Virus record (IMG/VR): IMGVR_UViG_3300044684_000069 | Location: 1 to 37,109 of that record | Source of the DNA: a virus | Length of the DNA: 37,109 nucleotides | Reading direction: 5' to 3' (one strand) | Shown here: in pieces, positions 4,626 to 30,690 of the stretch | Numbering within the stretch: the first letter of the stretch is position 1 | Layout: every line of letters starts with the position of its first letter | Notes under the pieces: model-generated | What the model was told of the DNA's origin: nothing | Databases searched by the model: none | What the model saw: only the letters and a program-made list of their open reading frames with translations | Position numbers and translations under genes: made by a program

Positions 4626-5066
4626 ATGGCTTCTGACGGCTTTGACGCCACCCTGATCCAAGACTTGGATGTAGCTTTCCCAAATGTTGACCCTGGAGTT
4701 GAGCCTCTCGGCGCGAGGGTGCTTGTCCAGCTGCGCCGCCTTGGCAGCGTGACGGCTAGCGGCATTCTTGTCGTAGCAGAGACCAAAGAAACGGCGAAGT
4801 GGAACAACCAAGTCGCCAAGGTCGTCAAGGTCGGGCCGCTGGCCTTCCGCAATCGTGATACCGGCGAGCACTGGAAAGAGGGCGCTTGGGTCAAGGAAGG
4901 TGAGTACGTGCGCGTCCCACGTTGGGGCGGCGATCGGGTGGAAATCCCAGTCAAGCAAACCGGCGTCGAAGATAGCGAGCCAGTCACGTTTGTTGTGTTC
5001 AACGATCACGAGTTGATTACGAAGGTCACGGGCGATCCGCTGAAGCAGCGGGTTTACGTCCTCTGA
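4626..5066 (+). CDS. GroES-like phage co-chaperonin (146 aa)
   Basis: Co-chaperonins cap GroEL and help capsid proteins fold; phage versions such as T4 gp31 replace host GroES. The fold order matches GroES: PLGARVLVQ (27-35) for the first strand, TASGILVVAET (43-53) at the mobile-loop position with the hydrophobic triplet I47-L48-V49 expected to bind GroEL, VAKVVKVGP (63-71), VKEGEYVRV (89-97) and FVVFNDHELI (122-131) for the last strands. It is longer than GroES (97 aa) by an N-terminal extension and an insert around residues 73-88. The start follows AGGAACCGAA. It has its own transcription unit between two identical terminators, just before scaffold and capsid genes. No GroEL gene is in the window, so it would work with the host chaperonin. 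Confidence 0.8.
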   Translation: MASDGFDATLIQDLDVAFPNVDPGVEPLGARVLVQLRRLGSVTASGILVVAETKETAKWNNQVAKVVKVGPLAFRNRDTGEHWKEGAWVKEGEYVRVPRWGGDRVEIPVKQTGVEDSEPVTFVVFNDHELITKVTGDPLKQRVYVL

Positions 5067-13269: not shown

Positions 13270-13551
13270 ATGATTCAGGAGTTCGGGACGCCCTACACCG
13301 GGCCGACTGTTCCGGCGGTTGTCTCTATGCGCCAAGCGAGGCAGGCCCTGTATCTCGCTGGGAAGCTCTCGGCAGTGGACAGCGCGATTGCCGCGATGAC
13401 GGACCCGACCCAGCAGCAACTCGCCTACATCTGGTGGAACTACAGCAACGAGGTGCAGCGGTCAAACCCGCTTGTCTCCGTGCTGGGGCTCGCCATCGGG
13501 CTGCAGTCGTCTGACATCGACCAGCTTTTCCAGACGGCCAATTCGCTATGA
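13270..13551 (+). CDS. Small tail-accessory protein (93 aa)
   Basis: The segment VVSMRQARQALYLAGKL followed by a short helix and IWWNYSNEVQRSNPLV matches a pattern I know from many short phage proteins at the end of tail operons (VSxRQARLAL...VDxAI...IxWEYAxxVxRxxPLV). Its function is not established as far as I know. It overlaps the next gene by 4 nt (ATGA). Confidence 0.7.
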   Translation: MIQEFGTPYTGPTVPAVVSMRQARQALYLAGKLSAVDSAIAAMTDPTQQQLAYIWWNYSNEVQRSNPLVSVLGLAIGLQSSDIDQLFQTANSL

Positions 13552-13964
13552 ACATCCTTTTGGCGAGAAAGCCGACGCTCGGGTCATGGCTGATTCGGTT
13601 CGGTACGTGGTCGCAATGGTCTCACTGCGCCATCTTGACCGATGGGCACGTCATTGACGCCACGATGCAGCGCGGTGTGGCTGAAAGGCCGTTCGCTGAG
13701 TTCGTCGCGGAGTACCCGGATCGTCTGATGCTGTCGGTTGACTGCGATGAGGCGAAGGCGCTGGCGTTCGCTCGTTCGCAGATTGGCAAGCCTTACGACT
13801 ATCTGGCAATCGTCGGGTTTGTCATCCGCCGAGGGTGGTCCAGCAGCGAAAAGTGGTTCTGTTCTGAGTTCGTTGAGGCCGTGCTTAAGGCTGGTGGGCG
13901 TCAACGTTTCCGCGAAGAACTACCCCGGATCACCCCGCGTGATGTCTGGGCGGTAACTCCCTGA
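13548..13964 (+). CDS. Permuted NlpC/P60-type papain-fold hydrolase (138 aa)
   Basis: Enzymes of the YaeF/YiiX-like permuted papain fold have the catalytic His early and the Cys late. Here His26 is in WSHCAIL, followed by GHVIDATMQRGV (the usual ligand-binding strand), then a helix ending in QIGKPYDYLA (79-87) and Cys105 in WFCSEFVEAVL. This order fits the family well. Known members cut amide or acyl bonds, often in peptidoglycan or lipids. There is no signal peptide, so it may act in the virion tail or in the cytoplasm. It overlaps both neighbours closely (ATGA at its start), placed at the join of tail and lysis genes. Confidence 0.75.
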   Translation: MNILLARKPTLGSWLIRFGTWSQWSHCAILTDGHVIDATMQRGVAERPFAEFVAEYPDRLMLSVDCDEAKALAFARSQIGKPYDYLAIVGFVIRRGWSSSEKWFCSEFVEAVLKAGGRQRFREELPRITPRDVWAVTP

Positions 13965-13965
13965 C

Positions 13966-14586
13966 ATGCGCTACCTCATTTTGATCTGCGCGCTGCTGAC
14001 AGCGTGCGGAGGCGGGAGCGCGCCCGCCGATCCTCCTAAGACCATCGCGGCTATCGGCGACTCGCTGACGCTTCAGACGGGGCTGTGCGCCGACGCTACA
14101 GGCCTTCCGTCCTGCGCTCACCCCGAGCGCTCCTACGCAACCTACATCGGCGTCATCGGCAACTTCGGGCGGGGAGGTGACACCTGTACCCCCGAGGAGC
14201 CGTTCGACTCCGGGCCGTTCAAGGGTCAGCAAAGAGGCATGACCTGGCGCATTCACGAGCTGATCGTGCTGCACCCGACACAAGGCGTCGTCTTCGCTGG
14301 CTACAACGACCTCACAAGGGGCGTCAGCAACGACCTCATCGTCAAGTGTCTGGCGGACCTGTGGTGGCGTCTTCAAGCGAACGGCATTGAACCGATCGCG
14401 ATGACCTACCCGAAGGTGCAGGTGAATACCGAAAAAGTCGCTGCTTTGAACGTGGCGATACGAGACGCGGCCAAGTCGGCGGGCATCCGGCTAGTGGACG
14501 CCGAAACCGTGGATGTGCCGACCGTCGATGGTCTGCACCCGACCGAAACCGGCGCACGCGCCATAGCCAGCCTCTTCTCAAAGTGA
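13966..14586 (+). CDS. SGNH/GDSL-type hydrolase lipoprotein (206 aa)
   Basis: A signal peptide ends in the lipobox LLTAC with Cys14 as the lipidation site, followed by GGGSAPADPP, so the protein should be anchored to a membrane facing the periplasm. The SGNH blocks are all present: block I IGDSLT with Ser33, block II Gly in FGRGGD (about 70), block III GYND with Asn114, and block V DGLHPT with Asp188 and His191. The family acts as esterases or deacetylases on acyl groups of carbohydrates or lipids. A lipid-anchored form is unusual for a phage gene and points to action on the envelope of the infected cell rather than in the virion. It overlaps the next gene by 4 nt (GTGA). Confidence 0.8.
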   Translation: MRYLILICALLTACGGGSAPADPPKTIAAIGDSLTLQTGLCADATGLPSCAHPERSYATYIGVIGNFGRGGDTCTPEEPFDSGPFKGQQRGMTWRIHELIVLHPTQGVVFAGYNDLTRGVSNDLIVKCLADLWWRLQANGIEPIAMTYPKVQVNTEKVAALNVAIRDAAKSAGIRLVDAETVDVPTVDGLHPTETGARAIASLFSK

Positions 14587-15046: not shown

Positions 15047-15223
15047 TTGGATCGCCGGCCGTTCGCGTGGGCTGTTGAAGCTCCTGACGGCTGGGTTTCC
15101 CTGTATCGAGATCAAACGAGGGCACTGGAGTTCGCTGCCCGCTGTCACGGACTGCTGATTCCGCTATTCGACCTGAGGAACAACGATGTTCCAAGCACTG
15201 AAGACGCTGGCGCAAAAGGCTAG
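15047..15223 (+). CDS. Small soluble lysis-region protein (58 aa, TTG start)
   Basis: A TTG at 15047 directly follows the previous stop, and the frame is open to TAG at 15221-15223. The product begins MDRRPFAWAVEAPDGWVSL and contains RALEFAARCHGLLIPLFDL. A pattern of this sort, an aromatic N-terminal strand and an ending near IxPLYxL, is shared by many short phage proteins, to my knowledge without a function. It is below 60 aa and so easy to miss. It overlaps the next gene by 38 nt. The alternative is that 15047-15185 is a short untranslated gap. Confidence 0.55.
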   Translation: MDRRPFAWAVEAPDGWVSLYRDQTRALEFAARCHGLLIPLFDLRNNDVPSTEDAGAKG

Positions 15224-15467
15224 TGATACCTGGACTCAGGCGATCACGGAGCCCAACAACCAGACCGTTTGCCCGGTTCGGCTGGGCGCGTTTGGTACGG
15301 CCATCGTCTACCACGCTGCCGCCGCTTACATGGTGTTCGGCCAGTCCACCAAGGTTGACATGAGCATCCTCGGCGCCTACGTCACGCACATGGCTGGCCT
15401 TTGGGCTGTCACCTCGGGATCTACCGGGCTCAAGTCGCTGATGAAGGGCGACGCGCCCAAGGAGTAG
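15186..15467 (+). CDS. Two-transmembrane holin candidate (93 aa)
   Basis: ATG preceded by GAGGAAC at 15175-15181. Residues 31-52 (VRLGAFGTAIVYHAAAAYM) and 58-80 (MSILGAYVTHMAGLWAVTS) are membrane segments, with charged ends. The number and spacing of segments fit a class II holin or a holin partner. A second holin candidate follows immediately, so one may be an antiholin. The end, KSLMKGDAPKE, is polar and cytoplasmic in the expected topology. Confidence 0.6.
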   Translation: MFQALKTLAQKASDTWTQAITEPNNQTVCPVRLGAFGTAIVYHAAAAYMVFGQSTKVDMSILGAYVTHMAGLWAVTSGSTGLKSLMKGDAPKE

Positions 15468-15469
15468 CG

Positions 15470-15946
15470 ATGCTCACCCTACTTTCCATGCTCGGGGGTG
15501 GCCTGTTCCGCCTCATCCCGTTCATCGTTGACTTCTTCAAGAGCAAGCAGGACGCGGACCATGAGTACCGCATGGCCCAGCTCCAGTTGCAGATCGACCA
15601 GGCGCGGGCGACTCAAGCTATCGACCTCGCGCACGCTCAGGCGGACATCGCTCTTGGCGCCGGAGAAATGCAGGCTTGGACCGAAGCGCTGAAGGGCCAG
15701 CAGCCTACCGGGGTCGCCTGGGTGGACGCGATCTCCTCGACAGTGCGCCCGTTCCTCACCTACTACTTCTGCGTGCTGCTGTACGGCTCGGCGAAGGCGA
15801 TTCAGGTCTACGTGGCGCTTTCCACCCACGTACCCCTGCCGCAGATCGTGCCGATCCTCGTGACGGAGTTTGACCAGAACGTCATCGCCTCGATCTTGTC
15901 CTTTTGGTTCGTCGATCGAGCGCTGCGCCGCCTGACTGGCAAATGA
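15470..15946 (+). CDS. Three-transmembrane holin candidate (158 aa)
   Basis: ATG at 15470, after AAGGAGTAGCG, which also contains the previous stop. The in-frame ATG at 15401 has no ribosome-binding site and lies in the previous gene. The sequence opens with a hydrophobic segment (LSMLGGGLFRLIPFIVDFF), then an amphipathic coiled-coil helix with many Gln and Ala (residues 27-75), then two membrane segments (about 95-115 and 128-148). This resembles the 3-TM holin family described for gene-transfer-agent release (GTA_holin_3TM). Assignment is from memory of architecture. Confidence 0.65.
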   Translation: MLTLLSMLGGGLFRLIPFIVDFFKSKQDADHEYRMAQLQLQIDQARATQAIDLAHAQADIALGAGEMQAWTEALKGQQPTGVAWVDAISSTVRPFLTYYFCVLLYGSAKAIQVYVALSTHVPLPQIVPILVTEFDQNVIASILSFWFVDRALRRLTGK

Positions 15947-16380
15947 GCGCCATAGACATCGCCGCCAGTCTGAGCCGGCGCTTTGAGGGGTTGCGCTTGC
16001 GCCCGTACCTGTGCCCGGCAGGCTTCCCGTCGATCGGCTTTGGTGCGCGTACCTATCTCGACGGCCGGCCGGTTCGGATGACAGACCCGGCTATTTCGGA
16101 AGAGACGGCGGAACGATTGCTGCTGTCCTCCCTGCAAAGAATCTACCTCCCTGCCGCGCAGAAGCTGTGTCCGAAGGCCGATGAATCGCAGCTCGGGGCG
16201 CTTGCCGACTTCTGCCTGAACCTCGGCCCGGCTCGGCTGGCATCCTCCACGCTGCGGCGCAAGTTCAACCGTGGTGACATCGTTGGCGCTCGGTCTGAGC
16301 TTCAACGTTGGGTGTATGGCGGTGGCAAAAAGCTCCCGGGGCTCGTGCTGCGCCGCAAGGCAGAGGCTGCGCTTCTGTGA
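15943..16380 (+). CDS. Endolysin, GH24 lysozyme-like (145 aa)
   Basis: Cuts the glycan strand of peptidoglycan at the end of infection. The start overlaps the holin stop (ATGA). The catalytic region SRRFEGLRLRPYLCPAGFPS gives Glu15, then Cys24 eight residues later, then Ser30 after five more. The family pattern is E-x8-(D/C)-x5-T. Here the third residue is Ser in place of Thr, which may keep the hydroxyl but is unusual. The rest, with FCLNLGPARLASSTLRRK and GLVLRRKAEAALL, is typical for the family. There is no signal peptide or signal-arrest segment, so a holin is needed for release. Confidence 0.85.
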   Translation: MSAIDIAASLSRRFEGLRLRPYLCPAGFPSIGFGARTYLDGRPVRMTDPAISEETAERLLLSSLQRIYLPAAQKLCPKADESQLGALADFCLNLGPARLASSTLRRKFNRGDIVGARSELQRWVYGGGKKLPGLVLRRKAEAALL

Positions 16381-16802
16381 CGACAGTCGTCGCGAGCGTA
16401 GCGGACGGCCTGATGGTCGCCGACTCCAACATTTGCGACGACGATCGCCGCTATCCGGGCAAGAAGGTGTGGCGCATCAAGGGCGTCCTGATCGGCTTTG
16501 TTGGTGAGGAGCCAGACCACCTCCGCTTCCTTGAGTGGTATCGCGGCGGCATGGAGGGGAGGATCCAGTTCGGTGCCTCCAAAGCGCTGATCCTGTCCCC
16601 AGGCAAGCTAGAGCTATTTGATTCCAACTATGAGCGTCCGGTATTGATCCCGAAGGGCAGGGATGCCATCGGGACAGGCGCCAAGGCTGCGATGTGCGCT
16701 TGGGAGGCGCTTGGGTGGAAGAACCCAAAACGAGCCGTGCAGATCGTGTGTAGACACGATGTCGGCTCTCTCGGCCCCGTGCGGGTCTATCGACTGAGGT
16801 AA
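16377..16802 (+). CDS. Proteasome-subunit/HslV-like Ntn hydrolase (141 aa)
   Basis: GTG start overlapping the endolysin stop (GTGA). After removal of the start Met the chain would begin with Thr, the nucleophile in this family: TTVVASVADGLMVADSN. Counting that Thr as 1, Asp15 and Lys28/29 in YPGKKVWRI match the places of Asp17 and Lys33 of proteasome beta and HslV. Later blocks also fit: GVLIGFVGEEPDHLRFLEW, LILSPGKLELFDSN, and DAIGTGAKAAMCAWEALG for the conserved GxGxxxA segment. The chain is shorter than HslV (about 175 aa). No HslU-type ATPase is in the window. Related phage genes exist, but substrate and partner are not known to me. Confidence 0.75.
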   Translation: MTTVVASVADGLMVADSNICDDDRRYPGKKVWRIKGVLIGFVGEEPDHLRFLEWYRGGMEGRIQFGASKALILSPGKLELFDSNYERPVLIPKGRDAIGTGAKAAMCAWEALGWKNPKRAVQIVCRHDVGSLGPVRVYRLR

Positions 16803-16807
16803 AGCCG

Positions 16808-17983
16808 ATGCCCGCGTCTACCGAGAAGGTTGATCCGAAGCTCAAGGAATGGTGTAGCGAATCTCAAGCTCGATACATCGACGCGGTGAACGAACACGGC
16901 TCCATGCGAGCCGCCGCCCGCGCGCTGAAGGTCAACTACTACACCGTTCACTGCGCCATCAATCGAGCGCAGGCCTCGGCGGCGAGACGAGGATATGCGC
17001 CAGACCATGACATGGTGCGAACGGTACCCGAGGGCTTCAGGGTCAAAGGGGTATCGACCTACTACAACGAAGATGGGAAGCCGGTCGGGCAATGGGTGAA
17101 GTCCGAGGCGGACAAGCAGGCCCAAGAGGCGTTGATGCGGTCGGCGTTCGAGGCAATGGCGGAGGATCTGCCGCGCTTGAGCAAGACGCTGGCGCCGGCA
17201 GACACCCTGCCGCAGTTGTGCAACGTCTACACGCTGACCGACAGCCACGTTGGCGCGTTGTGCTGGGGCAAGGAGACGGGGGCGGATTGGGATTTGAAGA
17301 TCGCCGAGGAGGTGCTTACCGGCTGCTTCGAGCGCATGCTGTTGTCTGCGCCTCGGGCTCGGGTCGGCATCGTCGCCCAGCTCGGCGACTTCCTGCATCA
17401 GGACAGTATGGCCGCTGTGACGCCGACGAACGGCCATCTCTTGGATGCTGACGGGCGGTTCTCAAAGGTCGTGCAGGTTGCGGTCCGGGTTCTGCGGCGT
17501 GTGGTTGACCTGGCTCTAAAGCGGCATGAAGCTGTTGTTGTCCTCCTCGCGGAAGGCAACCATGACCTGTCTTCCTCAATCTGGCTGCGTACGATGTTCG
17601 CGGCGCTCTATGAGAACGAGCCTCGGATCAAGGTGATCGACTCCCCGCTGCCGTACTACGTCCACCAACATGGCGAGACGATGATCGGCTGGCACCACGG
17701 ACACCTGAAGAAGAACGATGGCTTGCCGCTGATGTTCGCTGCCGCCTTCGCCAAGGTCTGGGGCAACACGACCAAGCGGTACATCCACACCGGCCACCGG
17801 CACCACATCGAAGAGAAGGAACACGATGGGGTTGTGGTTGTGCAGCACCCGACGCTGGCCGCCCGCGACGCCTATGCCGCCCGAGGGGGCTGGATTGCAG
17901 AGCGCAGCGCCAAGGCCATCACCTACCACGAGCGGTTCGGCGAAGTCGGCCGCGTGACCGTCACTCCGGAGATGCTGCGATGA
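16808..17983 (+). CDS. HTH-metallophosphoesterase fusion (391 aa)
   Basis: ATG after GAGGTAAAGCC. Residues 20-60 form a helix-turn-helix (AVNEHGSMRAAARALKVNYY), then a linker, then a calcineurin-type metal-dependent phosphoesterase with all blocks: DSHVG (145-149), GDFLH (193-197), GNHD (250-253), GWHHGH (294-299) and HTGHRHH (327-333). These residues bind two metal ions. Family members cut phosphodiesters in DNA, RNA or nucleotides. The HTH suggests DNA binding. It could act in DNA repair, replication or host takeover, but context does not tell. It overlaps the next gene by 4 nt. Confidence 0.8.
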   Translation: MPASTEKVDPKLKEWCSESQARYIDAVNEHGSMRAAARALKVNYYTVHCAINRAQASAARRGYAPDHDMVRTVPEGFRVKGVSTYYNEDGKPVGQWVKSEADKQAQEALMRSAFEAMAEDLPRLSKTLAPADTLPQLCNVYTLTDSHVGALCWGKETGADWDLKIAEEVLTGCFERMLLSAPRARVGIVAQLGDFLHQDSMAAVTPTNGHLLDADGRFSKVVQVAVRVLRRVVDLALKRHEAVVVLLAEGNHDLSSSIWLRTMFAALYENEPRIKVIDSPLPYYVHQHGETMIGWHHGHLKKNDGLPLMFAAAFAKVWGNTTKRYIHTGHRHHIEEKEHDGVVVVQHPTLAARDAYAARGGWIAERSAKAITYHERFGEVGRVTVTPEMLR

Positions 17984-29640: not shown

Positions 29641-30690
29641 GTGCTGTTGACGTACCGTTACCGCGTGAAGTCCCTTCATGGCTTGCTGAAAAAGCAAGCC
29701 CGTGCGGTCAACTTCGTTTGGAACTACTGCAACGATCGGCAGAAGGACGCGCTGCGCTTCGGTAGGCGCTGGCTCACTGGGTTTAACCTCAACAACCTCA
29801 CCGCCGGCAGCAGCCGCGAACTCGGCCTGCATGCCCGCACCATTAACGCGGTGTGTGATAAGTATGCCCAGTCCCGAGCGCAGAAAAATCGTCCGTTTCT
29901 TCGCTATCGTGGCAAGAAGTCGCTTGGCTGGGTGCCTCTCAGGGGACGTGACGTGAGGGAGACGCCCAACGGTTTTCACTTCCACGGCCGTGAATTCAAG
30001 GTGTTCAAGAGCCGCGATTTGCCGGCCGGCGCAACAATCAAGGACGGAACCAACTTCTCGCGTGATTCGCGCGGCAACTGGTTCCTGAATGTCTGCATAG
30101 AGGTTCCAGATGTGCCGGTCCGCGCGCCTGCCATAGGTGTTGGCATCGACCTTGGGCTTAAGGAGTTGGCCGCCCTCTCGACCGGCGAGAAGATCGAGAA
30201 CCCGCGGCACTTCCGACAGTTGGAGGAGGCGCTTGGCAAGGCACAGCGCGCCAGGAAGAAGCGCCAGGCCGCCAACATCCACGCCCGCATCGCCAATGCG
30301 CGTCGGGACTTCCTGCACAAGGCGTCGCTCAGCATCGTGCGGCGCTTCGACTACATCGCGGTGGGCAACGTGTCCGCCGCCGGGCTTGCCAAGACCAGCA
30401 TGGCGAAGTCTGTCTACGACGCTGGCTGGTCGTCCTTTCGAAACATGCTCCGCTACAAAGCGATTGCGCACGGGGCTTGGTACGAGGAAGTGAACGAGGC
30501 GTTTTCCACCCAGGTCTGTTCTTCGTGTGGCTCCATGCCGCCGGAGAGGCCGAAAGGTATCGCAGACCTTGGAATAAGGCGGTGGGTCTGCAGTGATTGC
30601 GGTTGCGAACATGATCGTGACGTGAACGCTGCTTTGAACTTGCTTGCCCGCTCGGGACATCGAGCGCCTGTAGAGGGAACCCCGGCTTAG
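29641..30690 (+). CDS. tnpB: TnpB-type RNA-guided nuclease (349 aa)
   Basis: TnpB proteins of IS200/IS605 elements cut DNA guided by an RNA from the element's right end. GTG start; an in-frame stop lies at 29623. RuvC-I Asp170 is in GVGIDLGLKELAALS; RuvC-III is in HDRDVNAALNLLA with Asp325 and Asp327; a zinc ribbon uses C293, C296, C317 and C320. At the usual RuvC-II Glu position the sequence is AVGNVSAAGLAKTSMAKSV, with Gly242 where most TnpBs have Glu. Nearby Glu282, Glu283 and Glu286 (YEEVNEAFSTQ) could take over. No tnpA is present. The stop codon lies in the loop of the right-end hairpin. It is the only plus-strand gene in this arm. Confidence 0.85.
   Translation: MLLTYRYRVKSLHGLLKKQARAVNFVWNYCNDRQKDALRFGRRWLTGFNLNNLTAGSSRELGLHARTINAVCDKYAQSRAQKNRPFLRYRGKKSLGWVPLRGRDVRETPNGFHFHGREFKVFKSRDLPAGATIKDGTNFSRDSRGNWFLNVCIEVPDVPVRAPAIGVGIDLGLKELAALSTGEKIENPRHFRQLEEALGKAQRARKKRQAANIHARIANARRDFLHKASLSIVRRFDYIAVGNVSAAGLAKTSMAKSVYDAGWSSFRNMLRYKAIAHGAWYEEVNEAFSTQVCSSCGSMPPERPKGIADLGIRRWVCSDCGCEHDRDVNAALNLLARSGHRAPVEGTPA

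Follow-up and report, generated by a model that had tools for sequence, protein, structure and literature searches.

Fuchs, Alva and Lupas named the PPH family in 2021, describing proteins of ~140 residues from tailed phages and prophages that lack helix H2, a propeptide and an associated ATPase; no AAA+ partner was found to co-occur with these new proteasome homologues, their gene context was uninformative to their discoverers, and the authors warned that some proteasome homologues may not form rings (PMC8665760). Connectase, from the same superfamily, is a monomeric ligase (PMC8665760), and BPH, a relative without a known ATPase, forms a double ring that is bound covalently by epoxomicin (PMC5777263). 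An HslV without HslU had already been noted in 2020 in the Salmonella jumbo phage pSal-SNUABM-04 (PMC7823757).

The window analysed here, a stretch of 37,109 nucleotides from an IMG/VR virus record with portal-like, head-protease, endolysin and other phage genes, encodes a 141-aa protein (Table 1) that by its sequence belongs to PPH. Because that family was published in 2021 and HslV without HslU has been reported in a phage, the window protein is not a new kind, and we assign it to the described family rather than to a new one. It shares with PPH its length, the Thr1/Asp17/Lys33/Gly47 site, the lack of a propeptide, of H2 and of the C-terminal S12/H5, its origin in a tailed phage and the lack of a visible partner ATPase. 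The window clade differs from other PPHs in forming a deep, distinct branch (20-33% identity to the others), in a 2-residue insertion in the H3-H4 region, in a Ser129 site that most members fill with Thr rather than Ser, and in its conserved GTG start and fixed place at the end of the lysis cassette.

Table 1. Coordinates of the PPH gene, its predicted active-site codons and its neighbours in the window
Feature	Position	Strand	Evidence or conservation
Probable lysis-cassette gene	15470..15946	+	phrog_6637 (no assigned function), 1.8e-28; overlaps endolysin start; role assigned from position
Endolysin (GH24 phage lysozyme), overlaps PPH from upstream	15943..16380	+	Pfam PF00959, 3.9e-30; phrog_7
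PPH gene, 141 aa, proteasome/HslV-like Ntn hydrolase	16377..16802	+	phrog_1040; AF2; Foldseek; profile vs PDB
GTGA overlap, PPH start codon and TGA stop of upstream lysis gene	16377..16380	+	sequence
Thr2 codon (mature Thr1), predicted nucleophile	16380..16382	+	131 Thr and 1 Ser of 132
Asp16 codon (proteasome Asp17; Asp15 of mature chain)	16422..16424	+	131/132
Lys30 codon (proteasome Lys33; Lys29 of mature chain)	16464..16466	+	132/132
Gly43 codon, oxyanion-hole Gly47 position of proteasome	16503..16505	+	128/132; role from PMC8665760
Gly99-Thr100-Gly101 codons, GSG motif, Ser129 site of proteasome beta	16671..16679	+	conservation
Asp128 to Ser131 codons, R-D-x-x-S-G-G motif, Asp166/Ser169 sites of proteasome beta	16758..16769	+	alignment
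HTH-metallophosphoesterase ("DNA repair exonuclease")	16808..17983	+	phrog_704, 4.3e-124

Gene, sequence relatives and predicted fold

A first-pass annotation of this DNA had proposed this frame, with a Thr directly after the initiator Met, and both details are exact. The translated frame begins MTTVVASVADGLMVADSN, from GTG as its first codon, and closes with TAA; its product opens MTTVVASVADGLMVADSNICDDDRRYPGKKVWRIKG, with a Met-Thr-Thr N-terminus in which Thr would be residue 1 once Met is removed. The Thr codon follows the start codon directly, leaving no propeptide. The GTG start is common to all relatives of the window clade, and among phage homologues the Met-Thr-Thr N-terminus, present in 130 of 132, is retained across ATG, GTG or TTG start codons. 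Purifying selection acts on the gene: between the window PPH and that of its relative L001 there are 17 synonymous changes against 4 nonsynonymous ones (dN/dS 0.07), and a second pair of relatives, L002 and L003, gave a dN/dS of 0.04. Annotated starts in Brevundimonas phage Kabachok (L011, 4004-4012) and in CcrColossus (L039, 2501-2530) lie downstream of a Met/Ile-Thr-Thr N-terminus and would cut off the nucleophile; the Kabachok PPH probably starts at an ATA, a rare start codon, preceded by a GGAGG site.

Searched against PHROGs v4, the window PPH matched phrog_1040 ("peptidase HslV family") over its full length (E 1.6e-16), as did all seven related contigs; the same profile also has matches in control genomes of E. 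coli, B. subtilis and archaea, which an HslV/proteasome profile should have. With the single sequence as query, nothing in Pfam, NCBIfam or the PDB matched significantly, so the protein's homology is detectable only with a family profile. It had no match above the gathering score to PF00227 (Pfam Proteasome), a model that 19 of 47 relatives matched singly at E <=0.01 (best 1.6e-5), and a profile built from 47 phage sequences, the window's included, matched HslV (1.7e-10), BPH (3.5e-9) and proteasome beta-5 (6e-8) in the PDB. GenBank labels for the phage relatives range from HslV family peptidase to 20S proteasome and Ntn hydrolase. The HslV label carried by phrog_1040 and by some GenBank entries is loose: these phage proteins are shorter than HslV, come without HslU and either miss the HslV equivalog models altogether or score far below their cut-off, and the window protein had no NCBIfam match, including the curated HslV models TIGR03692 and NF003964, even at E 1.

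Such proteins are widespread among phages. One Vibrio-phage PPH matched 398 of 50,697 records, which corresponds to about 400 sequenced phages with relatives. Close relatives of the window PPH were found in viral contigs only, with none in the bacterial genome contigs searched and none in a plasmid search. In a tree of phage PPH-like proteins the window clade was strongly supported and long-stemmed, and the deep branches were weak.

The AF2 model of the window PPH, computed on the 47-sequence alignment, had a mean pLDDT of 93.7 and a pTM of 0.89, with no residue below 70. It is modelled as an alpha-beta-beta-alpha sandwich with an N-terminal nucleophile, the elements running as six strands, a helix (45-56), two strands, one strand, two helices (102-111 and 117-127) and a final strand. 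Between the strands at 37-42 and 69-74 there is only helix 45-56, so that the model is a predicted proteasome core minus the second helix of the first pair, H2. Foldseek placed HslV first among PDB entries (1m4y, 2.4e-8; for 3ty6_C, a TM-score of 0.84 by query length and an rmsd of 2.7), followed by BPH (E 2.8e-7) and then 20S beta subunits; PDB matches at E <=0.001 numbered 279, and the best 50 were all HslV, BPH or proteasome subunits. The Ntn hydrolase fold on which the first-pass annotation had staked its assignment is thus borne out by the model. Since the PHROG match, the PDB profile match, the high-confidence fold and the purifying selection agree, the assignment is not a product of chance.

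The likeness to both structural neighbours has limits. The window PPH shares with HslV (ClpQ) the fold, the MTT N-terminus, the Asp/Lys site and the GSG motif, yet it is 35 residues shorter than E. coli HslV. BPH, like the window protein, is a Group I proteasome homologue without a known ATPase, but its chains are longer (185-197 residues in those matched) and it forms a 14-mer with a long acidic pore loop, which the window PPH lacks along with H2.

Active-site residues in 132 phage sequences

Conservation of the active site was counted over 132 phage sequences, with the Met included in the numbering unless the mature chain is stated, and the HslV comparison sequence was checked against the PDB. 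Judged from the alignment, the window PPH has an intact Thr-Asp-Lys site of the proteasome/HslV type. Loss of the Thr in close homologues, which had been named as evidence that would overturn the first-pass assignment, is not what we found: every sequence but one keeps it. The exception is Rhizobium phage RHph_N2_6 (L032, 3001-3465; MSVVVYHDG), with Ser as the predicted nucleophile. The further claim that the Asp and Lys spacing is kept stands in part. Mature-chain Asp15 and Lys29 are aligned to Asp17 and Lys33 of HslV, but the spacing is approximate, because both the distance from Thr to Asp and that from Asp to Lys fall two residues short of those in E. coli HslV.

The roles of Ser129, Asp166 and Ser169 in proteasome beta subunits are established, and their equivalents are also retained. 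Gly99 and Gly101 are kept in 132 of 132 sequences and position 100 is Ser or Thr in all of them, the window PPH having a GTG motif with T100. Asp128 and Ser131 were aligned to the beta-subunit motif through a Vibrio phage homologue; Asp128 is present in 131 of 132 sequences, and as many have Ser or Thr at position 131.

This pattern bears on the suggestion that PPH has kept only the fold and serves, without catalysis, as a scaffold or decoy, for instance one that blocks host HslV as a poison subunit or as an inhibitor. Even a protein this short could contact HslV-like subunits, and the family has no known activity. An inactive decoy, however, would not need conserved catalytic sites, and the Thr1, Asp17, Lys33 and Ser129/Asp166/Ser169 sites are kept in nearly all of the 132 divergent homologues and in each of three paralogues of a single phage, which makes this suggestion very improbable.

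The phage in question is the jumbo Caulobacter phage CcrSC (NC_048048.2), in which three distinct PPH paralogues (L010, L153 and L154) occur at 764-1204 (repeated at 294.3 kb), 47.5 kb and 228.4 kb. The Thr/Asp/Lys site is intact in all three, so the inactive alpha-like paralogue that was considered for phages with several PPHs was not seen. A hetero-oligomer of the CcrSC paralogues is conceivable.

Predicted action and the search for a partner ATPase

We consider it probable that the window PPH is a late N-terminal-threonine peptidase, likely a small ring, which lacks an unfoldase of its own and is coupled to the end of the lysis cassette. Methionine aminopeptidase tolerates Thr as the second residue, and the host enzyme would remove the initiator Met and expose Thr1. 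The mature Thr1 would then cut peptide bonds, with Asp15, Lys29 and the equivalents of Ser129, Asp166 and Ser169 in support. By analogy with HslV and BPH, the subunits would most likely form a small single or double ring that encloses the active sites; the contacts in such a ring may differ from those of HslV, because the model lacks H2 and has a very short H1-S7 linker. The enzyme would act in the cytoplasm late in infection, in an ATP-independent or host-assisted manner, on peptides, loosely folded proteins or substrates passed on by host factors. In the literature searched we found no biochemical study of a PPH and no experiment demonstrating that any of them is a protease or forms a ring, and the "phage-made proteolytic particle" of the first-pass annotation is here a candidate ring peptidase. 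If it is an active ring protease, PPH would be among the smallest proteasome-type machines, with the phage supplying its own proteolytic core.

That no HslU ATPase accompanies the gene, as had been noted at first reading, agrees with our search for AAA_2 (HslU/ClpX-type) ATPases, which found none in the window or in six related contigs, all of them fragments. With no such gene in these seven related contigs, any unfoldase would need to be host-derived. The particle could accordingly work with a host AAA+ unfoldase, HslU or another, as a phage-supplied chamber that redirects host ATP-dependent degradation, and HslV chains are its closest solved relatives. We regard this as unlikely, given that no AAA+ partner co-occurs with the new homologues (PMC8665760), that the models defining HslV do not match the window PPH, and that the HslU-docking surface may be altered without H2.

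Neighbouring genes and the lysis cassette

The translational coupling of PPH to the endolysin that had been proposed for the window has a real basis in the 4-nt GTGA overlap, but the endolysin does not hold up as a specific partner, since the gene that overlaps PPH from upstream differs among relatives. In L001/L015, whose PPH is 97% identical and whose neighbouring genes are mostly 94-100% identical to those of the window (one at 85%), the GTGA overlap is with the TGA of an Rz spanin gene. The overlapping gene is Rz1-like in L016/L017, and in L018/L019 it encodes a 55-aa membrane protein and itself follows an endolysin. Comparison of window positions 15047-16376 with L015 6562-8000 revealed a clean case of module swapping, in which the lysis cassette has been exchanged for an unrelated one with a different GH24 endolysin and Rz/Rz1.

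The GTGA overlap alone is weakened as evidence because every (A/G)TG-ACN start contains TGA. The informative point is that a lysis gene ends exactly at the PPH start in most relatives (in L020-L023 the upstream frame is without assignment). A sequence-distant PPH, that of the Xanthomonas pradovirus f30-Xaj, follows endolysin, Rz and Rz1 in a comparable order, again with a 4-nt overlap, and phage L13.2, related to f30-Xaj, has a similar arrangement. This recurrent place at the end of the lysis cassette is a useful addition to what has been published on the family, and the window clade together with the cultured f30-Xaj places PPH in a defined context, at the close of a lysis operon, and offers a practical system for testing it.

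Elsewhere PPH adjoins other genes. It directly precedes the holin/endolysin genes in jerseyvirus-like phages, and in other lineages it lies beside PhoH, primase, PhuZ, terminase or head-completion genes. The lysis link is therefore lineage-specific, and PPH as a universal lysis gene was rejected; late expression is likewise not a trait of the family, as many PPH genes are far from lysis genes.

These contexts could be taken to indicate that PPH is a specific maturation or regulatory hydrolase or ligase, a monomer or small oligomer with one late target such as a lysis or regulatory protein. Connectase shows that the fold can serve a specific monomeric enzyme, and PPH closes the lysis cassette in f30-Xaj and, despite swapped partners, in the window clade, and sits just ahead of lysis genes in the jerseyvirus-like phages. 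Yet the lysis partners are non-homologous between relatives while PPH stays, so that a single lysis-protein substrate is unlikely, and most other sampled PPH lineages lie away from lysis genes; we find an enzyme with one target doubtful. A related and equally tentative idea is that the PPH of some lineages is expressed late and has a function linked to lysis, the gene staying locked to the last lysis gene by the start/stop overlap despite cassette exchange, and that the same arrangement arose separately in pradoviruses. Such a PPH would degrade lysis regulators or clear cytoplasmic proteins at lysis. The late peptidase described above continues to be the reading that we prefer.

On the downstream side, a phrog_704 metallophosphoesterase usually accompanies PPH in the window clade (L015, L018/L019 and L020-L023); the downstream neighbour in L017 is a different metallophosphoesterase, phrog_221. 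Because phrog_704-type phosphoesterases occur in about 2,000 phage records and lie near few other PPH loci (directly adjacent in L134; within 3 kb in L101, L059, L109 and three more), the pair is a feature of the clade only, and a fixed functional unit of the two was rejected. In L134 (1808-3438) the order is opposite to that of the window, with an HTH-metallophosphoesterase upstream that overlaps the PPH start, and an endolysin lies two frames (0.3 kb) downstream of PPH.

Several other genes of the window were recognised. Just upstream of the lysis genes are a C92 papain-like amidase (13548-13964; phrog_1128) and a GDSL lipase/esterase (13966-14586), and a match to a GroES-like co-chaperonin (4626-5066; phrog_3188, 1.1e-7) lies between the portal-like gene and the head-protease/capsid genes. 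The stretch around a transposase gene (29641-30690; phrog_506, 5e-62) contains no further recognised phage genes, and the transposase could signal either an insertion or a phage that is itself transposable.
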